The notes beneath the pieces were generated by a model. That model searched no databases. It was given only the letters and a program-made list of their open reading frames with translations, and was not told the DNA's origin. From Rhodoligotrophos defluvii (GTDB lineage: Bacteria; Pseudomonadota; Alphaproteobacteria; Rhizobiales; Im1), in NCBI RefSeq assembly GCF_005281615.1, contig NZ_SZZM01000006.1:186001-250000 (forward strand): a stretch of 64,000 bases of DNA. The letters run 5' to 3'. The position numbers and the translations under genes were made by a program. Positions 6,676-22,219 of the stretch are shown here, piece after piece (position 1 is the first letter of the stretch; each line of letters begins with the position of its first letter).

Positions 6676-6810
6676 AAATGCCGGAGAAGGCCAGGGCGCA
6701 TTGCAGAACATGTATGACCGCAAGCGGCTTCCGATCTGCGGGCTTGACTTGCTTCCCATTGGCACCTCCACTGGCGCCAAAGAATGGACCAGGAATCGAA
6801 GCTTTTGACC

Positions 6811-7782
6811 ATGCCGACCAGCGTAAGCGTCACCGTGCCGGCCCGCCTTCACCTCGGGTTTCTCGACTTGGGCGGCGGCTTGGGTCGGCGGTTCGGCAGC
6901 CTGGGGCTCGCCGTCGAGGCCCCGGTGACACGATTGACCATTCGGGCGGGGGCGCAGGCACGGATGAACGGGCCGGACGGTGAGCGCGCCGCGCGCTATC
7001 TGTCGGAAATGGAGCGGCACCTGGGCTTGGCCGAGCACTCGCATATGGTCGAGATTCTGGATGCCATCCCGCCCCATGCTGGGCTGGGCTCCGGGACCCA
7101 GCTCGCCCTTGCCGTGGCGGCGGGCTTGCGCCGCCTGCACGACCTACCGCTTGATCCGCGGGGCGATGCGGCACGCCTCGGCCGGGGCGCGCGGTCCGGC
7201 ATAGGCATTGGGCTGTTCGAAAGCGGCGGCTTTGCGGTGGATGGCGGCCGGCATGAGGATGGCGGACCGCCGCCGATCATCGCCCAGCACCGTTTTCCAG
7301 ACCAGTGGGGCATCATTCTCGTCATGGATGAGCAAGTCGAGGGCGCCCATGGCCCCCGCGAGATCCAGGCGTTCCAAGCCCTGTCCCCGTTCCCGGCAAG
7401 CGAGGCCGGGGCAATCTGCCGGCTGGCGCTGATGCAGGTTCTGCCAGCGGTTGTGGAGCGGGATCTCGCCGCCTTCGGCTCGGCCATCAGCGAGATCCAG
7501 GCGCGGCTCGGCGACTATTTCGCGCCCGTTCAGGGCGGGCGGTTCACCAGTCCGCGCGTGGCTCAAGCCATGGCACGGCTCGCGGCGGCGGGCGCGACCG
7601 GCATCGGCCAAAGCTCGTGGGGGCCGACCGGCTTTGCCTTCGCGCGATCCTATGCCTCCGCCGCCGAGATGGCCGAGGCGCTGCGCCTGCAACCATTTGC
7701 CGCCGAGCTCGATATCCGCGTGGTCAAGGCCTCCAACCGCAAGGCCTCGATCATTATGCCGGCGGCATCCCTGACGCACTGA
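6811..7782 (+). CDS. mptG: Beta-ribofuranosylaminobenzene 5'-phosphate synthase (beta-RFAP synthase)
   Basis: Catalyses the committed step of methanopterin synthesis: condensation of phosphoribosyl diphosphate with p-aminobenzoate (p-hydroxybenzoate in some lineages), with loss of CO2 and diphosphate. It is a GHMP-kinase-superfamily protein of about 323 residues. Diagnostic segments are VTVPARLHLGFLDLGG at the N-terminus, PPHAGLGSGTQLALAVA (the GHMP glycine-rich loop), and GIGQSSWGPTGFAFA near the C-terminus. An upstream in-frame ATG at 6784 would add nine residues; family members begin close to the PARLHLGF motif, so 6811 is chosen. It is the first gene of the rightward C1 operon and is 16 bp from mtdB. 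Confidence 0.94.
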   Translation: MPTSVSVTVPARLHLGFLDLGGGLGRRFGSLGLAVEAPVTRLTIRAGAQARMNGPDGERAARYLSEMERHLGLAEHSHMVEILDAIPPHAGLGSGTQLALAVAAGLRRLHDLPLDPRGDAARLGRGARSGIGIGLFESGGFAVDGGRHEDGGPPPIIAQHRFPDQWGIILVMDEQVEGAHGPREIQAFQALSPFPASEAGAICRLALMQVLPAVVERDLAAFGSAISEIQARLGDYFAPVQGGRFTSPRVAQAMARLAAAGATGIGQSSWGPTGFAFARSYASAAEMAEALRLQPFAAELDIRVVKASNRKASIIMPAASLTH

Positions 7783-7798: not shown

Positions 7799-8695
7799 AT
7801 GAGCGACAAGACCATCCTCCACATGCTGACGCCGCTCAAGCATATGAGCCCGTTCGACGTGAATATGGCGGCGGATGCGGGGTTCGACGTGCTGAGCAGC
7901 TATACGAACGTGACGGCGAGCGAGGTGGCGGGATTGGTGCAGGATGCGATCTTCTCCCGCCCGCCCAAGCGCGGGGTGAAGACGGGCCTGTTCATCGGCG
8001 GAAAGGACGCGATTGTCGCACTGGACATGCTCAAGGCGGCCAAGAAGGCTTTCGTGCCGCCCTTTGCCATTTCCCTGTTCGCCGACCCCGCCGGCTCGTT
8101 CACCACGGCTGCGGCCATGGTTGCCCGGGTCGAGCGGCTGTTGCGGGTCCAGTATGACCGTGGCCTCAAGGGCGCCAAGGTTCTGGTATTTGGCGCAACC
8201 GGCGTGGTCGGGTTCTCGTCGGCGGTGATTGCCGCCCTCGAAGGGGCTGACGTCACCCTGGTTGGCTATGACGGCCCGGTGCGGGTCGAGCGGCTATCGG
8301 CGGAGATCGAGGCGCGCTTCGACGTCACCACCCGGTTTGCCGATGGGAGCGACGACGAGAAGAAGGAGAAGCTGCTGCTCGGGGCGGAGATCGTCTTGAG
8401 CGCCGGCAAGGCAGGCGTGCAGGTCCTGTCCGCCGACCTGGTGCGGAGTGCGGACAGCCTGCTGATCGCGGCCGATGTGAATGCGGTGCCGCCGGCCGGC
8501 ATCGAAGGGCTGGCGCCCACCGCCAACGGGGAAAAAATCGGCAATAGCAAAGCCCTTGGCTTGGGGGCGCTGACCATCGGCGGGGTCAAGTATCAGACCC
8601 AGTCCGGCCTGTTCAAACAAATGCTCAAGGCGGAGAAGCCGGTGGTCTATGACTTCCGCGACGCCTTCGTGCTGGCGCGCACGCTGGTGCAATGA
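7799..8695 (+). CDS. mtdB: NAD(P)-dependent methylene-H4MPT dehydrogenase
   Basis: Oxidises methylene-H4MPT to methenyl-H4MPT, the first oxidation after formaldehyde capture by Fae. 298 residues, as expected for MtdB. The N-terminus carries LHMLTPLKHMSPFDVNMAAD, the family hallmark; the dinucleotide-binding loop GATGVVG is at residues 132-138. A GGAGGA ribosome site precedes the ATG by about 7 nt. The stop overlaps the ATG of the next gene (ATGA at 8692). The related NADP-specific MtdA acts mainly on tetrahydrofolate; context with mch and fae favours MtdB. Confidence 0.95.
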   Translation: MSDKTILHMLTPLKHMSPFDVNMAADAGFDVLSSYTNVTASEVAGLVQDAIFSRPPKRGVKTGLFIGGKDAIVALDMLKAAKKAFVPPFAISLFADPAGSFTTAAAMVARVERLLRVQYDRGLKGAKVLVFGATGVVGFSSAVIAALEGADVTLVGYDGPVRVERLSAEIEARFDVTTRFADGSDDEKKEKLLLGAEIVLSAGKAGVQVLSADLVRSADSLLIAADVNAVPPAGIEGLAPTANGEKIGNSKALGLGALTIGGVKYQTQSGLFKQMLKAEKPVVYDFRDAFVLARTLVQ

Positions 8696-9813
8696 CGGCC
8701 GATCAGCGACCCGCCGTGCTGATCGCCGCCATTTCCGGCCGGGCGCTGGCGGCCGCGGCGCGGGCGGCAGGCTACAGACCGCTGGTGGCGGACTTGTTCG
8801 GCGATCTCGACACGCGGGCGTTGGCAGAGGCCTGGGCCGTGGTGCCGGGCGACCTCGAGCGCGGCTTCGAAGGTGCGGCGCTGATGGAGGCGCTGGACGC
8901 GCTCGCGGCAGACTATCGGCCGGTCGGTCTGGTCTATGGCGGCGGCTTCGACGGCCGGTCCGCGCTGCTCGGCGCGCTGGGCAGGCGCTGGCCGCTGCTG
9001 GGCAACGGCGCGCGGGTGGTGGCCGCGATCAAGGACCCGTTCCGCTTTGCCGAAGCATGCCGGGCGCTGGGTATTCCCCATCCCGCGGTGGCGCTCGACG
9101 GCACGGATGTGTCCGGTCCATGGCTGGTCAAGCGGGCGGGCGGATCGGGTGGGGCCCATGTCGCGCATTACCGCGGCGTCGCCCTCGGTCAGGGCGAATA
9201 TCTGCAGGCCTTGGTCGGCGAGCGCTCGATCTCTGCGCTGTTCTGCGCAGCACCCGGGCAGTGCGAGACCATCGGTTTCAGCGAGCAGTGGACCGATGCC
9301 GGCGCGACGCCCTTCGTCTATGGGGGAGCGGCCCGGCCGGCCGCGCTGGACCAGGATCTCGCCGCCCATATGGCGGCCGCCGTCGAGGGGATCGCCTCGG
9401 CTTTCGGCCTTCTCGGCCTCAACAGCGCCGATTTCCGGATCGACCGAAACAGATACTGGCTGGTGGAGGTCAACCCGCGGCCCGGGGCCAGCCTCGATGT
9501 GTTCCAGGATCCCGAGGGCCAGGTCTTCACCCGGCATATCGCCGCGTGCCAAGGCCGAGCGATGACCGGCCAGCTGCGGCTGAAGGGCGCGGCAGTCTCG
9601 GAAATCCTCTATGCGCGAAAGCGCATCGCACAGGTGCCCGAGATCGATTGGCCCCATTGGACCGCCGACCGGCAGCCGCCCGGCACGGTGGTTGAAGCCG
9701 GCGCGCCACTCTGCACGGTCATTGCCCGAGCGGAGAGTACAGACGAGGCACGCGCCCTCGCCCAAAGCCGGAAGGTCGAGATGCAGGCGAAACTGGAAGA
9801 GGCAATCCCATGA
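8692..9813 (+). CDS. ATP-grasp ligase of the H4MPT gene cluster
   Basis: 373-residue ATP-grasp protein of the carboligase-related group (COG1821 type) found in methylotroph H4MPT clusters. ATP-grasp marks visible are the nucleotide-binding segment WLVKRAGGSGGAHVAHY (about 143-160), the ENP-type metal/ATP segment LVEVNPRPGASLDV (about 258-271) and a Rossmann-like N-terminal part. The family joins a carboxylate to an amine or thiol using ATP. A role in building the methanopterin or methanofuran side chain is likely from context, but the substrate is not known. Both ends overlap neighbours by 4 bp (mtdB and mch), so it is co-translated with them. Confidence 0.87.
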   Translation: MTADQRPAVLIAAISGRALAAAARAAGYRPLVADLFGDLDTRALAEAWAVVPGDLERGFEGAALMEALDALAADYRPVGLVYGGGFDGRSALLGALGRRWPLLGNGARVVAAIKDPFRFAEACRALGIPHPAVALDGTDVSGPWLVKRAGGSGGAHVAHYRGVALGQGEYLQALVGERSISALFCAAPGQCETIGFSEQWTDAGATPFVYGGAARPAALDQDLAAHMAAAVEGIASAFGLLGLNSADFRIDRNRYWLVEVNPRPGASLDVFQDPEGQVFTRHIAACQGRAMTGQLRLKGAAVSEILYARKRIAQVPEIDWPHWTADRQPPGTVVEAGAPLCTVIARAESTDEARALAQSRKVEMQAKLEEAIP

Positions 9814-10772
9814 CCCAGCCGAGCGTCAATGCGCATGCCATGCCGCTCGTGGAGGCCATGGTCGCCGATGCGGACGCGCTGCGCATTGACGTCAGCAGGG
9901 GCGCGCTCGGGGAGCGGGTCATCGATGCAGGTGCGTCGGTGTTGGGCGGCATCGAGGCGGGCCTGCGGATGGCCCGGATCTGCATGGGCGGGCTCGGCAA
10001 GGTGAGCATCTCGCCCGATCGGTGCTTGGAGCGCTGGCCCTGGGGGGTGGTGGTCCGCTCGTCGCAGCCGGTGATCGCCTGTTTAGGCAGCCAGTATGCC
10101 GGCTGGAGCCTCTCCCACGGCGAGGGCCAGCACGCGTTCTTCGCGCTCGGCTCCGGGCCGGCCCGGGCGCTGGCGGCGCGTGAGGCCATTTTCGACGAGC
10201 TCGGCTATCGCGATCATGCGGAGGGCACGGTCCTGGTGCTGGAGACCGACAGGCCGCCGCCCGCCACCGTGGTGGAGAAGGTGTGCCGGGATTGCGGCGT
10301 CGCCCCCGAGCGGCTGACGGTGATCTACGCGCCCACCCGCTCGCTTGCCGGCAGCGTACAGGTGGTGTCGCGGGTGCTCGAGGTGGGGCTGCACAAAGCG
10401 CACAGCCTGCATTTTCCGGTTGACCTGATCGTCGACGGCATGGGCACCGCGCCGATCGCTCCGCCGCATCCGGATTTCGTGACCGCGCTGGGCCGCACCA
10501 ACGACGCCATCATCTATGGCGGGCACGTGCACCTGTTCGTGCGGGGGCCGGCAAGGGCCGCGCACCAGCTGGCGAACCAGCTGCCGAGCAGCACGTCGCG
10601 CGACTGTGGCGAGCCTTTCTCCGAGATCTTCAAGCGCTTCAAGGGCGATTTCTACGCGATAGATCCGCTGCTGTTCAGCCCGGCCGTCGCGACCGTAACG
10701 GCCATAGAGCATGGGGTGAGCTTCCATGCGGGCGCCATCAGCCCTAAGCTGCTGGATCAGTCCTTCGCCTGA
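9810..10772 (+). CDS. mch: Methenyl-H4MPT cyclohydrolase
   Basis: Hydrolyses methenyl-H4MPT to N5-formyl-H4MPT, the substrate of FhcD. 320 residues, the usual Mch length. Family stretches: ERVIDAGASVLGGIEAGLRM, CLGSQYAGWSLSHG, FFALGSGPARALA, and the C-terminal GRTNDAIIYGGHVHLFV. The start ATG overlaps the preceding ATP-grasp stop. It sits between mtdB and fae in the same operon, so the three consecutive steps on H4MPT are co-expressed. Confidence 0.97.
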   Translation: MTQPSVNAHAMPLVEAMVADADALRIDVSRGALGERVIDAGASVLGGIEAGLRMARICMGGLGKVSISPDRCLERWPWGVVVRSSQPVIACLGSQYAGWSLSHGEGQHAFFALGSGPARALAAREAIFDELGYRDHAEGTVLVLETDRPPPATVVEKVCRDCGVAPERLTVIYAPTRSLAGSVQVVSRVLEVGLHKAHSLHFPVDLIVDGMGTAPIAPPHPDFVTALGRTNDAIIYGGHVHLFVRGPARAAHQLANQLPSSTSRDCGEPFSEIFKRFKGDFYAIDPLLFSPAVATVTAIEHGVSFHAGAISPKLLDQSFA

Positions 10773-10789: not shown

Positions 10790-11716
10790 ATGCCGCATAA
10801 TTCCCGTTCCCGCTCGCCCCTCGTGGCTCTGTTCGCCGACGGCAAGGACGGTCATGCCACGGCGCTGGAGAAGCGCCTGGAAGCGACAGGCGCCTTGGTT
10901 CGCCGGGCAAGTCTCGCCGACTGCGCCTTCGACAGCACCTACCCCGGCGGCATCGCCATTCCCGGCTTCGACGGCCTGCCGGATGCGGCCCTGGTGCGGA
11001 CTATTCCCGCCGGCAGCTTCGAGGCGGTGACCCGGCGACTCGGGATCTTGCACGGGCTGCGGGAGGCGGGCACCGTGGTGTGGAACGATGCGCGCGCCAT
11101 CGAGCGCTGCGTGGACAAGTCGACCACCACCTTCCTGCTGGGGCTGGCGGGCCTCGCGGTGCCGCCCACCTGGACGGTCGAGGATCGCGAGGCCGCTACT
11201 GCGATCGTGCGCCGGCAAGCACGATCGGTGCCGCTGGTGCTGAAGCCGCTGTTCGGCGCCCAAGGCCGGGGATTGAGGCTGATCCGCGATCCCGACGAGC
11301 TGCCCGCGCCGGAAGAGATTGCCGGCGTCTATTATCTCCAGCGGTTCATGGGGGTCGATCGCGGCGGCTATCGCGATTACCGGGTGTTCGTGGTGGCAGG
11401 CCGGGCGGTTGCGGCCATGTCGCGCCGGAGCGACAATTGGATCACCAATGTCAAGCAGGGTGGCCAGCCGGAGCCCACGCTGCTGGATGAAGAGCTGAGT
11501 CGGGTGGCGGTGCGAGCCGCAGCCGCGGTGGGCGCCGATTTCGCCGGGGTGGACATCCTTCGCCATGCACCCGGAGACGCCCTGGTGCTGGAGGTCAATT
11601 CCATGCCGGCCTGGAACGGGCTGCGGCAAGTCTGTGACATCGATATTCCCGGCGCGATCGTGGCCGCGCTGCTGCAGACGCTGGCCGCGCGCACGCCCTG
11701 GAGCGCTGTCGGATGA
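10790..11716 (+). CDS. RimK-type ATP-grasp ligase of the H4MPT cluster
   Basis: 308-residue ATP-grasp protein of the RimK/MptN type (COG0189). Visible: KPLFGAQGRGLRLIRD (about residues 146-161, the ATP-binding flap) and LVLEVNSMPAWNGLRQV near the C-terminus (metal and ATP ligands). Archaeal MptN and CofF in this family add glutamate residues to methanopterin and F420; an analogous amino-acid or acid ligation on H4MPT is the best guess here. It follows mch by 17 bp and its stop overlaps the next ATG (11713-11716). Family is well supported; substrate is inferred. Confidence 0.88.
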   Translation: MPHNSRSRSPLVALFADGKDGHATALEKRLEATGALVRRASLADCAFDSTYPGGIAIPGFDGLPDAALVRTIPAGSFEAVTRRLGILHGLREAGTVVWNDARAIERCVDKSTTTFLLGLAGLAVPPTWTVEDREAATAIVRRQARSVPLVLKPLFGAQGRGLRLIRDPDELPAPEEIAGVYYLQRFMGVDRGGYRDYRVFVVAGRAVAAMSRRSDNWITNVKQGGQPEPTLLDEELSRVAVRAAAAVGADFAGVDILRHAPGDALVLEVNSMPAWNGLRQVCDIDIPGAIVAALLQTLAARTPWSAVG

Positions 11717-12573
11717 GGCCCACCCCGAGCGCGATCGCCTCCGCCTTCGTCGCCGCCTGCCGGGAGGAGCTCGCGGCGCCGAAGCCTGGCAATGTGCACG
11801 TTTTCGCAGCGGGGCACGGCATGACCGTGGACCAGTTCCTCACCAGCGCCGACGCAGCGGCCACCGCGCTGGCCACTTCCGGTGCGAGCGTTGGCGCGCG
11901 CATTCTGGACGCGATCTCGGCCACCAAGGTGGCCGTGGGCTGCAATACCAATCTCGGCATCATCCTGCTGTGCGCTCCGCTGGCGGCGGCCGCCGAGCGG
12001 GGGGCTGGGCTGCGCAGCGCCCTTGCGGAGGTGCTGGAGGAGCTCACCGTCGAGGACGCCGAGCTCGCCTTCGAGGCGATCGTGTTGGCAGATCCGGCCG
12101 GGCTGGGTGAGGCGGACGCGCATGACGTGCGGGCGCCCGCCGACTGCACGCTGCTTGAAGCGATGGCCAGCGCTGCAGCGCGCGACCGGATCGCCCAGGC
12201 CTATGCGGACGAATTCGAGGAAGTGTTCGGCCCGGGGCTTGCGACATTGGAGGAGGCCCGCGCTCGCGCTCTTTGCCGGTGGTGGCCGGCAACCGCCGTC
12301 TATCTCGCTCATATGGCTGCGGCACCTGATAGCCACATCCTGCGCAAGCATGGGCCGGACGTGGCGGGCCAGGTTCGCAGCCAGGCGCGCGCCGTGCTGA
12401 GCGAAATGCTCGACCTCGCCGAGCCCGAAGCCGCTTTGGACCGCCTGCTCGCGCTGGACCGGTCGCTCAAGGACCGCGGCCTCAACCCGGGGACCTGCGC
12501 CGATCTCACCGTGGCCACCCTGTTTGCCGACAGGCTCGCAGCCCTCTTGAAGAATGCGCCCGGGAGTGGTTGA
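11713..12573 (+). CDS. CitG-like triphosphoribosyl-dephospho-CoA synthase family protein
   Basis: 286-residue protein of the CitG/MdcB fold (COG1767). Marks: APKPGNVHVFAAGHGM near residue 20 and VGCNTNLGIILLCAPLA near residue 76, the conserved ligand-binding segments. CitG itself transfers a phosphoribosyl unit from ATP to dephospho-CoA for citrate lyase. No citrate or malonate lyase genes are in the window, and members of this group recur in H4MPT clusters of methylotrophs. I infer a role in H4MPT synthesis, possibly forming its alpha-linked ribose-phosphate; this is not shown. It overlaps the RimK-like gene by 4 bp and is followed by the fae leader. Confidence 0.85.
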   Translation: MRPTPSAIASAFVAACREELAAPKPGNVHVFAAGHGMTVDQFLTSADAAATALATSGASVGARILDAISATKVAVGCNTNLGIILLCAPLAAAAERGAGLRSALAEVLEELTVEDAELAFEAIVLADPAGLGEADAHDVRAPADCTLLEAMASAAARDRIAQAYADEFEEVFGPGLATLEEARARALCRWWPATAVYLAHMAAAPDSHILRKHGPDVAGQVRSQARAVLSEMLDLAEPEAALDRLLALDRSLKDRGLNPGTCADLTVATLFADRLAALLKNAPGSG

Positions 12574-12583
12574 CTGCGCGGCA

Positions 12584-12601
12584 AGCGGAGTGAACTCCGC
12601 T
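12584..12601. promoter_or_regulatory. Inverted repeat in the fae upstream region
   Basis: AGCGGAGT-GA-ACTCCGCT is a perfect 8-bp inverted repeat 11 bp after the CitG-like stop and about 110 bp before fae. There is no T-run, so it is not a classical intrinsic terminator. It may be an operator, an RNA processing or stabilising hairpin, or a weak attenuator separating fae from the upstream genes. The 139-bp gap probably carries a fae-specific promoter, since fae products are usually very abundant. Confidence 0.4.
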
Positions 12602-12712
12602 CTATCCGGCCAACCGGTCCGGCGCCTTGCTGGACGCTGACAACAAGGATAGCTGCTCAGTGAACCCGCGGCTTGGCACAGCCGGTCGCATGCAAGGGAG
12701 GGTATTTGGCCA

Positions 12713-13219
12713 ATGGCGAAGATCAACAAGGTGCTGGTCGGCGAGTCTCTCGTCGGTGACGGCAACGAGGTCGCCCATATCGATCTGATCATGGGCCCGC
12801 GCGGCAGCGCGGCAGAATCGGCGTTCTGCAATGCGCTGGTCAACAACAAGGACGGCTTCACGAGCCTCTTGGCCGTGATCGCGCCAAACCTGCCCTGCAA
12901 GCCGAATACGGTGATGTTCAACAAGGTCACCATCAAGGGCGCGAAGCAGGCGGTGCAGATGTTCGGCCCGGCCCAGCACGGGGTGGCAATGGCCGTGCAG
13001 GATTCGGTTGCCGAGGGTGTCATCCCGGCGGATGAAGCGGACGACGTATTCATCTGCGTAGGTGTGTTCATCCACTGGGAAGCCGCGGACGACAAGAAGA
13101 TCCAGGACTTCAACTATCGCGCCACCAAAGAGGCCATCGCCCGCGCCGTCGCCGGCCAGCCGAGCGCGGCTGAGGTCACCGCGCAGCGCAGCAGCGTGAA
13201 ACATCCCTTCGCGGCCTGA
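12713..13219 (+). CDS. fae: Formaldehyde-activating enzyme
   Basis: Condenses formaldehyde with H4MPT to give methylene-H4MPT, the main formaldehyde-detoxifying and oxidation entry step in methylotrophs. 168 residues, normal length. Strongly conserved blocks: [17 protein letters not shown] (with the conserved active-site histidine), [41 protein letters not shown] and [13 protein letters not shown]. An AAGGGAGGG ribosome site lies about 11 nt upstream of the ATG, rather far. A strong terminator directly follows. Confidence 0.98.
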
Positions 13220-14336: not shown

Positions 14337-14912
14337 TTAGGCCGAGCCGGCAAAGTGCTGCCGCACCCGCTCCATCAGCCAGTCCCAGGCCAGCTGCTCG
14401 TCGGCGCCGGCGGTCTTGTTGACGGCGATCTCGAGATAGGCGATCTCGGCCTCAATCTTGTCCCGCGGCAGCATATGAAGGCGGCTCACCAAAATGGCCA
14501 GTTCCATCACCGCGGCCTTGGCGCGGTTGAGGCCCATAAACGGCGCGTGGTTTGCCATCTCCAGTATCCGGCAATGGAAACGGGGCCGCAGCTCGTGCTC
14601 TTCCACATGCTCGACCGCCAGGGTTGCGTGAGCGAGGCAGGACTCCAGCCGCGGCACCGGAAAGCCGGCGAGCTCGCGCAGCGGCCAGTCGCGGCGGCCA
14701 GTGAGGCATCCGGCGATGATGCGCACATCGTCTACGAAGTTGGCGACCGCGAAGGGCAGCTTGCGCAGGTTGTCGAGGGTAGCCGACGGCCTGAACGGCG
14801 CGATGATCCAGTAAGACCCATCCTCGATGACGCCGAGCGGCGCGATGTGGACCTGCGCGCCCTCGCCGGGGCCGTAGGCCGTGGTTACCACGCATTCGCG
14901 GATCATGGGCAT
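14337..14912 (-). CDS. DUF447 family protein, H4MPT-cluster gene
   Basis: 191 residues, DUF447 (COG2457) family, recurrent in archaeal and methylotroph H4MPT gene neighbourhoods. Visible: IRECVVTTAYGPGEGAQVHIAPLGV (split flavin-reductase-like beta-barrel start), FVDDVRIIAGCLTGRRDWPL and NRAKAAVMELAILVSRLHML. The fold resembles FMN-binding split barrels, but no activity is established. The start ATG overlaps the stop of the dihydropteroate-synthase-like gene (TGATG at 14912), making it the last gene of the cofactor operon. Confidence 0.84.
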   Translation of the reverse strand: MPMIRECVVTTAYGPGEGAQVHIAPLGVIEDGSYWIIAPFRPSATLDNLRKLPFAVANFVDDVRIIAGCLTGRRDWPLRELAGFPVPRLESCLAHATLAVEHVEEHELRPRFHCRILEMANHAPFMGLNRAKAAVMELAILVSRLHMLPRDKIEAEIAYLEIAVNKTAGADEQLAWDWLMERVRQHFAGSA

Positions 14913-16312
14913 CAGTCGCCACTCCCCTGCTTGGCGCGGAGCGTGTGGCCGGCCGCCGCCAAGCGCGTCTTGTCCTCGCCGAGCACGTCCACGGCCGCGC
15001 CCCAGTTGAGCGGCTCGTCCTGGGCGAAGCGCTTGCCCAAGCGGTAGGCGATTTCGGCCTTCATCAGCTCGGTGCCGAGATAGAAGGCGTGCGCCCCGTC
15101 GGCCGCGATGCCCAGCTTGGGGAACAGCGACATGGCATCCTGCGCGACGTGGTGACCGCCGGCGTTGTAGATGTGGATGCCGTCGGACGAGACCTCGATG
15201 CGGTAATTCGCATCGCGCACCTGGGCGGCGAGCTCGGCGATCTCCGCGGGCGAGGAGGCAAAGGGCTTGCGGTCGTGCAGCTGCAGCAGCATGCGGCTAT
15301 AATCGCGCGGCAGGCTCTCATCCTCGCGCGCCGCCAGCATGATGCGGCGGGCTGCGTCGTGCTCCTCGATGGTGCGGCGGGTGTGGTCGCTCACATGCAC
15401 CACCAACACATTGTCTATGGCGAGCTCCGAGCAGATGCCCATGAGCACCGCGGTCACGCCACCGCTGTCGGCATCGGTGAGCTCGGTGAGATTGCCGGTG
15501 CCCATGAGCATGGGCGCCTGGGGATGCTGGCGCCGCACCGCCGCATAGCGCTCGAGGGACGCGGTGAAGCCGAAATGGATGGGGTCGAGAACGGGATCGG
15601 CGATCCAGGTGAGGCCGTGTTTCTCGGCCTGCTCCATGGCTTCATAAAGGGAGGGAAGGTCGCCGTGTTTGGCGGGCACCAGCACGGCGCCGGCGCCAGT
15701 CTCCCGGGCAATGGCGAGCGTCCCGCGATTGAGGCTCAGGAGCCAGTCCGCCCCGGCTTGCGCGCCGCGCCGCAGCTCGTCCGGGTCGGCGGAATCGACG
15801 CTTACGGCAAGCCCGGCGGCTTTCAAGGTGCGCACCACGTCTTCCAGGTGGGGAAACGGTGTGTCCGGCAGGCAGCCGATATCGATGATGTCAGCACCCT
15901 GCTCCCGCATGTCTTGGGCCTGGATGAGCAGGTCGTCCACCGTGCGGCCCGGCGCATCCACGATCTCGGCAAAGATCCGCACCCGGTAGCGGGTAAGATC
16001 GGGTGCGGTGCGGGCACGGCCGAGATGGTGCGGCAGATCCGCGAGTTCGTCGGGGCCGCGCTCGAAGGGGATGCCGAACGCCTCGCTCAACCGCGCCAAG
16101 TCAACCCGCGCGCGGCCCGGCAGCACCACCCGGTCCGCAGCGAGGGGGCGCGGCAGCCGGCGCATGAGGATCGCCTCGGTCATCAGGGCCGCCACCTTCA
16201 CGCCGATATCGTGGATGGTCCATTCGAACTCGGTTGGCCCAAGGCCGTTAAGGATCTTCTCCAGCCGTGGCCGGGCGAGACGACCGGTGACGAAGAGCAG
16301 GCGCTCAGCCAT
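14912..16312 (-). CDS. Dihydropteroate synthase-like protein (DUF6513 + pterin-binding domain)
   Basis: 466 residues. The N-terminal part (about 1-130) is the family-specific domain starting LLFVTGRLARPRLEKIL. The central TIM barrel resembles dihydropteroate synthase: GADIIDIGCLPDTPFPHLED, AVSVDSADPDELRRGAQAGADWLLSLN and PMLMGTGNLTELTDADSGG. Canonical DHPS joins hydroxymethyl-dihydropterin diphosphate to p-aminobenzoate. In the H4MPT pathway the acceptor would be an RFAP derivative; that reaction is inferred for this protein. It overlaps the flavoprotein gene by 8 bp upstream and DUF447 downstream. Confidence 0.88.
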   Translation of the reverse strand: MAERLLFVTGRLARPRLEKILNGLGPTEFEWTIHDIGVKVAALMTEAILMRRLPRPLAADRVVLPGRARVDLARLSEAFGIPFERGPDELADLPHHLGRARTAPDLTRYRVRIFAEIVDAPGRTVDDLLIQAQDMREQGADIIDIGCLPDTPFPHLEDVVRTLKAAGLAVSVDSADPDELRRGAQAGADWLLSLNRGTLAIARETGAGAVLVPAKHGDLPSLYEAMEQAEKHGLTWIADPVLDPIHFGFTASLERYAAVRRQHPQAPMLMGTGNLTELTDADSGGVTAVLMGICSELAIDNVLVVHVSDHTRRTIEEHDAARRIMLAAREDESLPRDYSRMLLQLHDRKPFASSPAEIAELAAQVRDANYRIEVSSDGIHIYNAGGHHVAQDAMSLFPKLGIAADGAHAFYLGTELMKAEIAYRLGKRFAQDEPLNWGAAVDVLGEDKTRLAAAGHTLRAKQGSGD

Positions 16313-16874
16313 GACGCAGCGCCGGCTGACCGCCGGCCAGTTCCGCCTTGCGCGCCGCGATCGCCGCTTCCAGCTGCCCGAGGGTTTCCACCACGGTGGT
16401 GGCCTCGAATTCCTTCAGCCGGGCAGTGTTCTCCAGATCGATGCGCCGGGGATAGACCTTGACCATGCCCTTGGGCGCCATGGTGTCGTGTTCGGGCGCG
16501 GTGTCGCAGGCGAAGACGATGGTCGGCACCCGGCATTTGCCGGCCTGCGCGAAGACGTTGGTCACCAACGTATCGGAGATGCCGAACACGCATTTGGCCA
16601 CGGTGTTCGAGGTGGCGGGCGCCACGATCAGGGTGTGGTAGACGCCGTAGTAGAAATTGCCGACCGGTGGCGCGCTGGCGGCCTTGTCCTTGTAGATGCG
16701 CATCGAGCGGCCAAGCGACAGCTCCTTGCGGTACATGCGCACCACCTCCTCGGCCGCCTTGCTGACGAACAGATCCAGATGGTCGAGCCCGGCCATCAGC
16801 GCAATCGATTCCGCAACGAAATGGCCGGACCCGGTGATGGCCCAACCCCAGCGAGGTGTCGCGACCTTGCTCAT
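16305..16874 (-). CDS. dmrB: Flavoprotein, dihydromethanopterin reductase DmrB-like
   Basis: 189 residues, flavoprotein family (PF02441) close to archaeal-type flavoproteins of H4MPT clusters. Motifs: WAITGSGHFVAESIALMAG (FMN-binding start), VAPATSNTVAKCVFGISDTLVTNVFAQA split as the family SNT(V/I)AK motif, and PTIVFACDTAPEHDTMAP. A homologue in Burkholderia reduces dihydromethanopterin to H4MPT, the final step of cofactor synthesis; that role is assigned by similarity. The frame runs up to 17141, but the ATG at 16874 overlaps the kinase stop (ATGA), so translation starts there. Confidence 0.87.
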   Translation of the reverse strand: MSKVATPRWGWAITGSGHFVAESIALMAGLDHLDLFVSKAAEEVVRMYRKELSLGRSMRIYKDKAASAPPVGNFYYGVYHTLIVAPATSNTVAKCVFGISDTLVTNVFAQAGKCRVPTIVFACDTAPEHDTMAPKGMVKVYPRRIDLENTARLKEFEATTVVETLGQLEAAIAARKAELAGGQPALRHG

Positions 16875-17458
16875 GCGGCTGCCCCTGCTTGCCACCATTC
16901 GGGCCCCATGATGCGGATGGCCACCGGGTAGTGCCGCAGCATGTCCGGCAAAGCTGCATCCACCAGGCCTGACGCGGCAAGCGCAGCGGCATCCTGGCCG
17001 GGGGGTGCGGCTTTCTGCTTCAGCAGGACGACCTCGCCGGCGGGTAGCTGCGCTGCCAGCCACACGGCCAAACTGTCGGAGGTGACGCGCCAGGACATCT
17101 CGATCGCCGGGTCGGCCAGGGCCATCTCGGTGGGCAGCCATACCGGGATCTGCCCGGCTGCCAGCGCCCCATGGAAGTCGTGGCGATTACGCGCGGGAAC
17201 GACCCGGTTGTCCAGATTGCACAGAGCCAGCCCGAATTGCTCCATGGCCAGCAGGGCCATGTGATGGGCCGCTCCATCGGAGAAGCCCATTGCGGATTGC
17301 GCCTGGCGCACCGCATCGGCAAACGGCCCGCCGCCTGGGACGAGAACCATGGGCCTCGCCCAGCCGGCAAGCGCTGCAAGGCATGGCCGCAGGTCGCCGA
17401 TCCTGGCATAGGAACCGCCCAGCTTCACCACAACCAGCTGGTCACTGCCTCTATTCAT
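16871..17458 (-). CDS. Amino acid kinase family protein, MfnE-like
   Basis: 195 residues with the amino-acid-kinase fold: VVKLGGSYA at residues 10-18 (phosphate loop), MVLVPGGGPFADAVR at about 37-51 and SWRVTSDSLAVWLAAQL at about 121-137. Archaeal MfnE phosphorylates aminomethylfuran-methyl phosphate on the way to methanofuran; this protein is the probable counterpart. It sits directly downstream of the MfnB-FolB fusion (8-bp overlap) and overlaps the flavoprotein gene by 4 bp. The family is typically a little longer in archaea. Confidence 0.85.
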   Translation of the reverse strand: MNRGSDQLVVVKLGGSYARIGDLRPCLAALAGWARPMVLVPGGGPFADAVRQAQSAMGFSDGAAHHMALLAMEQFGLALCNLDNRVVPARNRHDFHGALAAGQIPVWLPTEMALADPAIEMSWRVTSDSLAVWLAAQLPAGEVVLLKQKAAPPGQDAAALAASGLVDAALPDMLRHYPVAIRIMGPEWWQAGAAA

Positions 17459-18545
17459 CGGCCGGCGTCCTCACCCGGGTGATCTCGACGCCAATGGCGC
17501 CGGGCCCAAGATCGAGCTTGCTCACCCGGATGGTTGCCTTGCGTGCTCGGGGTTCGGACAGGATGCGCTGCGCCAAGGTCTCGGCCAGGGTCTCCACCAG
17601 CAGCACATGCCCGGTTTCGGCGAGCTCTGCCACCGCATCGGTGATCACGTCATAGGAATACACATCCTCCATATGATCGCCGGCCGTACGGCGGGGCGCA
17701 AGCTCCACCGTCACGTCGAAGCGCACGCGCTGCTTGTGGGCACGCTCGCGCGCGTAGGCACCCACGGGCACGGAGACGACGAGATTCTCGACCACGACCT
17801 TGTCTGGCCCAGCGGGCGCTAAGCTCACCGGTTTCGGCGGGCTCGCCGTGGCACGCACCAGCGCCACGATCGAGCGGACGGCGTTGCGGTCGATGCCGGC
17901 CCTGCGGTCGCCGCCAGGGCAGAGCGCGCTGCGGAAGCCGAGCACATCGGGCCTGAGCGGCAGGAGGCGCGGAATATCGGGCACCTCGAGGGAGCCGGCA
18001 AGCCCCGAGAGCAGGCCGACGGCGCGGGCTCGCTCGACGAAATCGCGCAGGGCGGCAATGCTCATGTGGTCGAGCAGCCGGCCGAAGCCCTTTTCGGCAG
18101 TGTCGAGCATGACGCCGGTGAAGCGGTTGGCGGCAAGCCGGCTGGCCAGCTCGGGGGCTACACCGTGCTCGGCGAAGACCACCGCAACAAGCTTGGCCTG
18201 ATCGGCCACGGGCGCCAGGGCGGCCAGGCACGCATCCAGGGCCGGACCATTGGCCGGGTTGCCCGGACTTGTGCCAAACAGCCCGATTTTCACGAAATCG
18301 ACGCCGGTTTCCGCCATGGCGGCGGCGGCGCTGCGCAGGGACTCGGGCTTCAGGGGCAAATCACCGATAACCGCGCTGGTGGGAACGCGGCCGGCCAGCG
18401 CGCGCAGCATGGCGCTGATGGTGGTATGGGGCACGGCACCGAGAGCGCCGGTCGTGGGGTCTTTGAAATCGATGATGTCGGCGCCCCCGGCTAGCGCGAT
18501 CTCGGCCTCCTGAGTATTTGCAACGCTGGCCAGCATCAATGTCAT
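17451..18545 (-). CDS. Fusion: (5-formylfuran-3-yl)methyl phosphate synthase (MfnB) + dihydroneopterin aldolase (FolB)
   Basis: 364 residues, two domains. Residues about 1-232 are DUF556/MfnB, which makes the furan ring precursor of methanofuran from two glyceraldehyde 3-phosphates. Lysines typical of its Schiff-base active site are at 28 (DFKDP), 86 (VKIGLFG) and 152 (AEKGFG). A proline-rich linker (about 233-246) leads to a FolB domain, residues 247-364: VVVENLVVSVPVGAYARER, then SYDVITDAV and VSKLDLGPGAIGVEI with the conserved lysine. FolB converts dihydroneopterin to hydroxymethyl-dihydropterin. The ATG at 18545 has a GGGAGGTGAT ribosome site; the frame upstream to 18587 is not used. One polypeptide thus serves both cofactors. 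Confidence 0.92.
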   Translation of the reverse strand: MTLMLASVANTQEAEIALAGGADIIDFKDPTTGALGAVPHTTISAMLRALAGRVPTSAVIGDLPLKPESLRSAAAAMAETGVDFVKIGLFGTSPGNPANGPALDACLAALAPVADQAKLVAVVFAEHGVAPELASRLAANRFTGVMLDTAEKGFGRLLDHMSIAALRDFVERARAVGLLSGLAGSLEVPDIPRLLPLRPDVLGFRSALCPGGDRRAGIDRNAVRSIVALVRATASPPKPVSLAPAGPDKVVVENLVVSVPVGAYARERAHKQRVRFDVTVELAPRRTAGDHMEDVYSYDVITDAVAELAETGHVLLVETLAETLAQRILSEPRARKATIRVSKLDLGPGAIGVEITRVRTPADE

Positions 18546-18549
18546 GGCA

Positions 18550-19608
18550 TCACCTCCCAGCCTTGTCTCCAGGACGTGATAACGCATAATCCAGCAGCAA
18601 GGCGACAGCCGCGGCCGGCGCGCAGGAACAAGCCGCGGCGGCCGCCTGCGGCGTGGTGGGGAAGAGGGTGTTGAAATCCACGTATGGACGGCCGAGACGC
18701 TCGGCGAGGCGCCGGACCACCGGCCGCCCGATGCCGGCGCCGATGACAGGAGAAAACGTGCTTGCCGCCCCCCGAGAGCAGACTAAGGCCACCGCTTCCC
18801 ACAGCTGGCGCAGCTGCATCTCCGCGAACCACCGGCTCAGGGCCTTGCATTCTTCCAGTGTCGCGTCGCCCGTATCGCGGCCGATCATGCGCATGAGGCG
18901 CTGACAGGAGGCGGTGATCGTCTTTTCGCGATTATCGGCAGTCTGGTGCTGGTCGACCGCCTCGTCGAGCTCGCCCAATATCCGAAAGACGTCCGCCATG
19001 GTGGCGAAATACTCGTTCATGAGCGTGGTCCAACGGCCCCGGAACGGCGCGCGGTCGCAGATCGCCATGAGAAACGACCGGGTATAGCCTGTATAGACAA
19101 GCTCACCTTCCTGAAGCCGTTCCGCATCGGTATAGCCAAGTCCCACCCAGGCGCCGTCGCGCAGCGGGATGATGTCGGTGGTGGTCGAGCCCATATCCAT
19201 GAACAGGCCGCTTCCTTGCGCGCGGGCGGCGATCATGGCGCTGGCATGCCAGTTGGCTGAGGCAATGTCCGCCTCATGGTCGGCGGCGCGCTCCGGGGCG
19301 AGGAAGCCGGCTCGGCCGCCATAGATGTTGACCTCCGCGGGGGCGAGCGCCGCGTCCATGATCCGGCTGAGCTGGCACACGCCTTCAGCCCGATTGACGA
19401 AGACATCGGCGAGCTCGCCGGTCATGGTCACGCCGTGATAGCTGGTGGTGCCAACCGCCTGCTGCGCCTCCGCCAGGGCCCGGTCGAGTTCGCCCAAGCC
19501 TTTCCACAAGGGGCACAGCACCTGTATGGCTGCCACCACGCGCCCGTCCTCGACCCGTGCCGCCTTGACATGGGCACCGCCGATATCCCATCCGATGGTT
19601 GCGGCCAA
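18550..19608 (-). CDS. H4MPT-linked C1-pathway ASKHA-fold protein, MfnF-like
   Basis: 352-residue hydantoinase/oxoprolinase-related protein (COG1548). ATPase-fold motifs: ATIGWDIGGAHVKAARVED at the N-terminus (phosphate 1) and GLFMDMGSTTTDIIPL at about 132-147 (phosphate 2). Archaeal MfnF joins the aminomethylfuran diphosphate to tyramine in methanofuran synthesis; this is the likely role here. Start choice: an AGGAGGGG site lies 3-4 nt before a TTG at 19608, whose next codons encode AATIGWDIGG. The longer frame begins with another TTG at 19632 and would place the ribosome site inside the gene. Downstream, 4 bp separate it from the fusion gene. Confidence 0.86.
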   Translation of the reverse strand: MAATIGWDIGGAHVKAARVEDGRVVAAIQVLCPLWKGLGELDRALAEAQQAVGTTSYHGVTMTGELADVFVNRAEGVCQLSRIMDAALAPAEVNIYGGRAGFLAPERAADHEADIASANWHASAMIAARAQGSGLFMDMGSTTTDIIPLRDGAWVGLGYTDAERLQEGELVYTGYTRSFLMAICDRAPFRGRWTTLMNEYFATMADVFRILGELDEAVDQHQTADNREKTITASCQRLMRMIGRDTGDATLEECKALSRWFAEMQLRQLWEAVALVCSRGAASTFSPVIGAGIGRPVVRRLAERLGRPYVDFNTLFPTTPQAAAAACSCAPAAAVALLLDYALSRPGDKAGR

Positions 19609-20354: not shown

Positions 20355-21332
20355 CTACTGAGCGGCGATCTGCTCCGCCTTCTTCACCAGCACCTGGGCC
20401 TGGCGGATCGAGGCGTAATCGATGAGCTTGCCGTCCAACGAGACCGCCCCGCGCCCGGCCTTGGCGGCTTCATCCATGGCTTGAAGAATGCGGCGCGCCT
20501 GGGTGATCTCGGCCTCGCTCGGGCTCATCACCTCGTTGGCCAGCGCGATCTGCGAGGGGTGGATCGCCCATTTGCCTTCGCACCCCAGGGCGGCCGCACG
20601 CTTGGCGGCCGCGCGGTAGCCGTCCGGGTCGGAGAAATCACCGAATGGGCCATCGATCGGCCGCAAGCCATTGGCGCGGGCTGCCACCACCATGCGGGCG
20701 ATCGCATAGTGCCACATATCGCCCCAATAGATATCGCGCGGCGCCTCGCCCTGCTTGTCGGCAAGCACGGCGTAATCCGGATTGGCGCCGCCGATATTGG
20801 TGGTCTTGGCCTTGGTGGAGGCGGCATAGTCGGCCACGCCGAAGTGGAGCGACTGGTTTCGCTTGCTCGCCCCGGCGATGGCATTGATGTTCTGCATGCC
20901 CAGGGCCGTCTCGATGATCAGCTCGAAGCCGATGCGTTTCCTGCGCCCCTTGGCCGCTTCGATCTGGGTTGCGAGCATGTCGACCGCGTAGACGTCGCTC
21001 GCCGTGCCCACCTTGGGAATCATAATGAGATCGAGACGTTCGCCCGCCTGTTCCAGCACGTCGACCACGTCCCGGTACATGTAGTGTGTGTCCAGGCCAT
21101 TGATGCGCACCGACAGGGTCTTGTTGCCCCAGTCGATGTCGTTGATCGCCTGGATGACATTCTTCCGGGCCTGCTCCTTGTCGTCGGGGGCAACCGCATC
21201 TTCCAGATCGAGGAAGATGACGTCCGCTGCCGATTTCGCCGCTTTCTCGAACAGCTTGGTCTGGCTGCCCGGGACGGCAAGCTCGCTGCGGTTGAGGCGG
21301 GGCTCCGCCTGCTCGACGACATGGAAGCTCAT
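20355..21332 (-). CDS. mclA: L-malyl-CoA lyase (HpcH/HpaI aldolase family)
   Basis: 325 residues. Cleaves malyl-CoA to acetyl-CoA and glyoxylate, the last step of the serine cycle; the same family also handles beta-methylmalyl-CoA. Conserved blocks: RLNRSELAVPGSQTKLFEKA, DVIFLDLEDAVAPDDKEQAR, HYMYRDVVDV, IPKVGTASDVYAVD, IETALGMQNI, RPIDGPFGDFSDPDGY and GKWAIHPSQIALANEV. The ATG at 21332 (MSFHVV) is preferred over the longer frame to 21425 because it matches the family N-terminus; GGAGAGAG lies 7-10 nt upstream. A CTCGGC-N11-GCCGAG repeat (21361-21383) lies in the leader. Confidence 0.95.
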   Translation of the reverse strand: MSFHVVEQAEPRLNRSELAVPGSQTKLFEKAAKSAADVIFLDLEDAVAPDDKEQARKNVIQAINDIDWGNKTLSVRINGLDTHYMYRDVVDVLEQAGERLDLIMIPKVGTASDVYAVDMLATQIEAAKGRRKRIGFELIIETALGMQNINAIAGASKRNQSLHFGVADYAASTKAKTTNIGGANPDYAVLADKQGEAPRDIYWGDMWHYAIARMVVAARANGLRPIDGPFGDFSDPDGYRAAAKRAAALGCEGKWAIHPSQIALANEVMSPSEAEITQARRILQAMDEAAKAGRGAVSLDGKLIDYASIRQAQVLVKKAEQIAAQ

Positions 21333-21421
21333 CTGGTGCGCTCTCTCTCCAACAACTGCCCTCGGCGGTGCAGAGCAGCCGAGACGGTCGGCCAAGTCAA
21401 GAGCGAAGCTGACAGCAGCCG

Positions 21422-22219
21422 TCACGTCTGCTCGCGGGCACTCCCGGAACCGGCCACATTGCCGGCGGTGCTGGGCGTGAGTATGCCGCGCATGATGTCG
21501 ATGGGCACGGGAAAGACGATGGTCGAATTCTTCTCGTCGGCGATGTCGTAGAGGGTTGAGAGGTAGCGCAGCTGCATCGCCTCGGGAGTCGCTGCGAGGG
21601 TGCGCGCAGCCTCGACCAGGCGTTCCGCGGCCTGGTGCTCGCCTTCCGCATTGATGATGCGCGCGCGTCTGTTGCGCTCGGCCTCGGCCTGGCGGGCGAT
21701 GGCGCGCACCATGCTCTCGTCGATGTCGACATGCTTGATCTCGACATTGGCGACTTTGATGCCCCAGGCGTCGGTCTGGCTATCCAGGATCTCCTGAAGG
21801 TCCTGGTTCAGCTTGTCGCGTTCGGCGAGCATCTCATCGAGGTCGTGCTTGCCGAGCACCGACCGCAGAGTTGTCTGGGCGAGCTGGCTGGTGGCCATCA
21901 TATAGTCCTCGACCTGAATGACGGCCTTGTCCGGGTCTACCACGCGGAAATAGATCACCGCGTTCACTTTCACCGACACGTTATCGTGGGAGATGACGTC
22001 CTGGCTCGGCACGTCGAGCACGATCGTGCGCAGGTCCACCCGCACCAGTTGCTGCACGAACGGCACCAGGATGATGAGACCCGGCCCCTTTACCCCGGAG
22101 AAACGGCCGAGCGTAAAGACCACGCCCCGTTCGTATTCCCGCAGGATCCGGATCACCGACACCACGATGCCGATTACGAAGGCGGCGATGACGAGATAGG
22201 CGAAGAGGTCGATCGGCAT
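21422..22219 (-). CDS. Slipin/stomatin-like SPFH (band 7) membrane protein
   Basis: 265 residues. One N-terminal membrane helix (about residues 7-25), then the SPFH domain: [53 protein letters not shown], ending in a coiled-coil stretch ([24 protein letters not shown]). Slipins oligomerise in membrane microdomains and usually pair with an NfeD protein. Here nfeD ends 3 bp before this start, the classical pair. No specific process can be assigned. Confidence 0.93.

Follow-up and report, generated by a model that had tools for sequence, protein, structure and literature searches.

Methanogens and many methylotrophs use tetrahydromethanopterin (H4MPT) as their one-carbon carrier. In methanopterin, the 5-OH of the ribitol carries an alpha-ribofuranosyl 5-phosphate; we know of no gene for the enzyme that adds the ribose phosphate of H4MPT, and in older pathway drafts PRPP was assumed to be the ribose donor. 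CitG places an alpha-ribosyl 5-triphosphate on a hydroxyl group, with ATP as the donor and adenine as the leaving group, and ribosyl transfer from ATP is, to our knowledge, the only known chemistry of the CitG family. A single inversion at beta-configured ATP leads to an alpha riboside and at alpha-PRPP to a beta product, as made by MptG, so that the alpha bond in methanopterin fits ATP as the donor. The triphosphoribosyl-dephospho-CoA synthases CitG and MdcB work together with a carrier protein and transferase partners.

For the H4MPT islands of methylotrophs, the gene order mch-orf5-orf7-fae was given in Methylosinus (PMC3615186), and orf5, orfY and orf17 were described as methylofuran genes (PMC8141765). 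Genes of the H4MPT cluster are essential for methanol growth of M. extorquens, and its dH4MPT was described as H4MPT without only the phosphate and the hydroxyglutarate (PMC8141765), which implies that the ribose is present. No enzyme data or orf7-mutant metabolite data were found in the literature searched, to which the first reports on M. extorquens mutants (J Bacteriol 2003-2005) did not belong, nor was any link of CitG or triphosphoribosyl with methanopterin found there; in PMC7391723 and PMC4683180 the name 'orf7' refers to another gene.

A 64,000-nucleotide stretch of the Rhodoligotrophos defluvii genome (the window) was analysed. A preliminary description had placed a CitG-like protein at 11713-12573 within an H4MPT operon, and both claims were borne out. 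An ATG-initiated frame of 286 aa was open at exactly these coordinates, and the match to the Pfam CitG family (PF01874) reached 229.5 bits against a cut-off of 27 and covered positions 1-283 of the 284-position profile; since nearly the whole model was matched, membership of the family is far beyond chance. It was the only PF01874 gene in the R. defluvii genome. The gene follows mptG, mtdB, an ATP-grasp gene, mch and orf5/myfB and precedes fae, all on the plus strand (Table 1), with fhcCDAB upstream, so that MptG and the H4MPT C1 genes mtdB, mch, fae and fhc all lie in the window. Its start overlaps the stop of orf5/myfB by 4 bp (ATGA), and overlaps of 4 bp were also observed at the mtdB/ATP-grasp and ATP-grasp/mch junctions; such successive overlaps indicate that the CitG-like gene is part of a tight operon. 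Its position in the mch-orf5-orf7-fae order (PMC3615186) makes it most likely the orf7 of methylotroph H4MPT islands, a correspondence of gene order.

Table 1. Genes of the H4MPT and methylofuran region in the window.
Feature	Coordinates	Strand	Evidence
mptG-like, beta-RFAP synthase family, first committed H4MPT gene	6784..7782	+	TIGR00144 166 bits, cut-off 113.5
mtdB, methylene-H4MPT dehydrogenase	7799..8695	+	PF09176 E=1.5e-34
ATP-grasp protein, probably myfA/orfY (methylofuran glutamate ligase)	8692..9813	+	PF02655; name from position and PMC8141765
mch, methenyl-H4MPT cyclohydrolase	9810..10772	+	PF02289 E=2e-122; TIGR03120 above cut-off
orf5/myfB, RimK-like glutamate ligase (methylofuran)	10790..11716	+	PF08443; MptN-like 183 bits; function from PMC8141765
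Orf7-type CitG-family protein, proposed alpha-ribosyltransferase of H4MPT biosynthesis	11713..12573	+	PF01874 E=8e-68; ATGA overlap; tree position
fae, formaldehyde-activating enzyme	12713..13219	+	PF08714; TIGR03126 above cut-off
dihydropteroate synthase-like protein (MptH-like)	14912..16312	-	TIGR00284; PF20123, PF00809
flavoprotein, afpA/dmrB-like, dihydromethanopterin reductase candidate	16305..17141	-	PF02441
mfnB (methylofuran) fused to folB (dihydroneopterin aldolase)	17451..18587	-	PF04476 and PF02152

The minus-strand island also holds an mfnE-like gene of the amino-acid-kinase family, a Hydantoinase_A-family gene and then an orf17-like gene. In the MfnB-FolB fusion of this island, the furan and pterin pathways are joined in one polypeptide. 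An antisense frame of 578 aa (11377-13113, minus strand) spans the CitG-like gene and its neighbours; it most likely represents a shadow ORF in a GC-rich genome, as judged by eye and from the clear homology of the CitG-like protein at the locus.

The AlphaFold model of the protein (pLDDT 95.1) was used for a fold search, in which the sole convincing match was 3h9p, with a Z of 23.3 across 217 residues; no other structure of the CitG family has been solved. The 3h9p protein, from Archaeoglobus fulgidus and deposited as a putative triphosphoribosyl-dephospho-CoA synthase, shares about 24% identity with the CitG-like protein and, judged by its Archaeoglobus relatives (L016-L018), falls in the same branch of the tree. 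Weak fold matches to the ADP-ribosylglycohydrolases DraG and ARH3 (the latter with Mg and ADP-ribose) and to FakA had Z values of 3.0-3.6, under the helical chance level, and were not used; they would be a lead to the ribosyl site. The globin matches of a PDB sequence search were put down to chance.

The tree was built from 79 sequences (LG+C20, SH-aLRT supports). A branch with 100% support split the Orf7-type copies, 45 bacterial and 28 archaeal, from CitG/MdcB, with E. coli CitG on the side opposite to the R. defluvii protein. The 45 bacterial copies formed one clade (96%) nested among the archaeal ones; earlier work argued that bacteria and archaea have a common history in their H4MPT genes (PMC5020050). 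The deepest member of the Orf7 branch (L098, genome G282) has SPGA as its end motif and comes from an archaeon with MfnB in which MptG was undetected. In the alignment, ten residues (E19, K24, G61, N78, G82, D206, P259, G260, A263 and D264) were invariant in both branches, which suggests a donor chemistry in common with CitG/MdcB, whereas the branch-specific positions N27, L81, N258 and T261 suggest a different acceptor. The Orf7-type motifs KPGNV, N.NLG, D.hI.RK.G and NPGT.AD were all found in the CitG-like protein, and KPGNV / N.NLG / NPGT.AD recurred with variations in archaea; CitG/MdcB, E. coli CitG included, read PKPGLV..G[SA]H.DM / NTH[RK]G / SPGG.AD, so that PGLV, H[RK]G and SPGG stand where the R. 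defluvii protein has KPGNV, NLG and NPGT.

The occurrence of the Orf7 type follows that of H4MPT genes. In an even sample of 192 Alphaproteobacteria, MCH was found in four genomes, in each of which an Orf7-type gene lies about 1 kb from it; the two remaining CitG genomes of this sample carried the CitG/MdcB type. MptG (TIGR00144) was searched for in 61 Alphaproteobacteria and the R. defluvii genome, and it was present in nine of ten genomes with the Orf7 type, none of four with the CitG/MdcB type and none of 48 without CitG (0/52 without the Orf7 type; Fisher p=5e-10, only a guide because related genomes are not independent); the copy of G036 was classed as Orf7 type because an mptG lies 5 kb from it. 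Of the 14 control genomes, five had a PF01874 match: M. jannaschii, M. acetivorans, Haloferax, Sulfolobus acidocaldarius and E. coli. The first four of these, and no other control, had MptG, and only E. coli had the citrate-lyase acyl carrier protein and CitX. The Thermoproteota sample comprised 19 genomes. As exceptions, G088 has an Orf7-type gene and mch with no MptG match, G282 and G296 have an Orf7-type gene with no detectable MptG, and a full-length MptG match was missing in 5 of the 50 genomes reached through Orf7-type loci.

When the GTDB species genomes were scanned with an alignment led by archaeal sequences, 80 loci were obtained. The archaeal ones came from Archaeoglobus, methanogens and Hades-, Asgard-, Alti- and haloarchaea, and the bacterial ones from Proteobacteria, Planctomycetota, Gemmatimonadota, Acidobacteriota, Chloroflexota, Bacillota and Caldisericota. 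By eye, mch or orf5 was counted within about 3 kb upstream in 36 of the 46 bacterial loci, across several phyla. In planctomycetes the CitG gene adjoins a PTPS gene or lies close to Pterin_4a and DHPS genes, in Hadesarchaea the order is CitG-DUF447-flavoprotein-MptH-like DHPS-DUF1464-mptG, in Archaeoglobus it is CitG-DUF447, and a Thermoproteota contig holds CitG, mptG and DUF447 together with fae nearby. The preliminary description had regarded the CitG homologue as a candidate for the alpha-ribosyl-phosphate linkage of H4MPT, and this view is supported by the separate clade, the co-occurrence with mptG rather than with methylofuran genes, the archaeal H4MPT operons and the lack of citrate-lyase or malonate-decarboxylase partners. 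We consider that the protein very probably works in H4MPT biosynthesis.

DUF447 adjoins CitG or mptG in three archaeal groups (L016:10699-11277, L021:6126-6803, L022:11764-12462), and one copy has a weak flavin-reductase match; it is a candidate for another step of H4MPT biosynthesis. The DUF1464 protein of Hadesarchaea (L021:9119-10288) lies between the MptH-like DHPS and mptG. Five haloarchaea (L043, L045, L062, L072 and L089) all carry an Orf7-type CitG, four of the five an MptG-family gene (6 kb from the CitG gene in L089), and none of them a clear MfnB. In PMC8305020, haloarchaea are described as users of tetrahydrofolate, and their MptG homologue is assumed to catalyse a different reaction. 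The presence of both genes conflicts with this tetrahydrofolate-only view, and the pairing of the genes with reported folate use is at the same time a puzzle for a ribose-adding role.

Two readings would take the protein out of H4MPT biosynthesis. Public annotation puts the name triphosphoribosyl-dephospho-CoA synthase on its relatives, and a true synthase could supply one of the carrier proteins of C1 metabolism with its prosthetic group. However, the NCBIfam CitG/MdcB/PRK01237 equivalog models (TIGR03125, TIGR03132 and NF002315) scored only 33, 40 and 32 bits against cut-offs of 272, 282 and 280, and family searches over the whole R. defluvii genome found no PF06857 acyl carrier protein, no CitX (PF03802) and no MdcG (PF10620). 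With the clade apart from CitG/MdcB and NLG and NPGT in place of the CitG motifs HRGA and SPGG, this reading is extremely unlikely. A helper role for citrate lyase or malonate decarboxylase was rejected on the scores, the absent partners and the separate clade, and the protein is CitG-like yet no orthologue of CitG/MdcB, with which it shares the PF01874 family and the invariant residues. The earlier remark that no citrate lyase genes lie nearby thus held for the neighbourhood and, for these partners, for the genome as well. The sole CitE-superfamily gene in the stretch examined encodes an HpcH/HpaI-type aldolase (20355-21425, minus strand), which was ruled out as evidence of citrate lyase since neither the carrier protein nor CitX is there. 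The methylofuran neighbours orf5, orfY and orf17 made it necessary to test a role in methylofuran biosynthesis, in which orf5/myfB, myfA and orf17 act. Methylofuran, however, has no ribose in its established structure, and in the 50 genomes reached through Orf7-type loci MptG was found in 45 and MfnB in 34, with 11 genomes holding MptG only and none MfnB only; some of the missing genes are due to incomplete assemblies, and the direction is one-sided. Haloferax and Sulfolobus have an Orf7-type gene and MptG with no clear MfnB, the sampled haloarchaea have no clear MfnB, and at one locus (L044, mptG-mtdB-mch-citG-fae) citG stands next to mch without an intervening orf5. Although the gene overlaps the methylofuran gene orf5/myfB (PMC8141765), the occurrence of the Orf7 type follows MptG and is independent of MfnB, and a methylofuran role is disfavoured as very improbable.

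Within H4MPT biosynthesis, gene context and co-occurrence fit any step, and co-occurrence cannot tell ribose addition from other H4MPT steps lacking an enzyme. A different step, such as phosphate handling of RFAP or opening of the ribofuranose, nevertheless has little probability, as ribosyl transfer from ATP is the family's only known chemistry and only 3h9p was convincing in the fold search. The same role with PRPP instead of ATP as the donor, by which the 5-monophosphate would be formed directly, is somewhat less improbable, though still unlikely. A single displacement at alpha-PRPP would give a beta bond, whereas that of methanopterin is alpha, and the core residues are common to the ATP-using CitG/MdcB. 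On the other hand, the donor cannot be read from the sequence, and the first committed step, catalysed by MptG, uses PRPP as its donor (PMC6787355).

As a separate branch that travels with H4MPT, the CitG-like protein is the best candidate for attachment of the alpha-linked ribose phosphate, and it probably adds the ribose of H4MPT from ATP. In the proposed route, the ribitol side chain of an H4MPT precursor would use its 5-OH to displace adenine from C1' of ATP, and inversion at the beta-N-glycoside would yield an alpha-O-ribosyl 5-triphosphate. In archaea, a later enzyme could link the ribose-5-phosphate to 2-hydroxyglutarate, releasing pyrophosphate, much as CitX acts on the CitG product; in R. 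defluvii, removal of the phosphates would leave dephospho-H4MPT. We infer the exact reaction, with its donor and acceptor, from the chemistry of the family and the alpha linkage of methanopterin, and the triphosphate intermediate and the later steps are likewise proposals.

The proposal gives one concrete gene for the ribose-phosphate step, from Archaeoglobus and methanogens to rhizobia and planctomycetes, and its mechanism would account for the alpha configuration of the methanopterin ribose. It is conceivable, though we hold this only tentatively, that the alpha-ribosyl phosphate of methanopterin arises through an ATP-derived 5-triphosphoribosyl intermediate made by the archaeal CitG-like enzyme, whose pyrophosphate end drives formation of the 2-hydroxyglutarate phosphodiester. 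Since the bacterial H4MPT copies are nested in a mainly archaeal branch, ATP-ribosyl chemistry may be older in the synthesis of C1 coenzymes than in the maturation of citrate lyase. If true, the proposed role would also correct the widespread triphosphoribosyl-dephospho-CoA synthase label in archaea and methylotrophs without citrate lyase or malonate decarboxylase.
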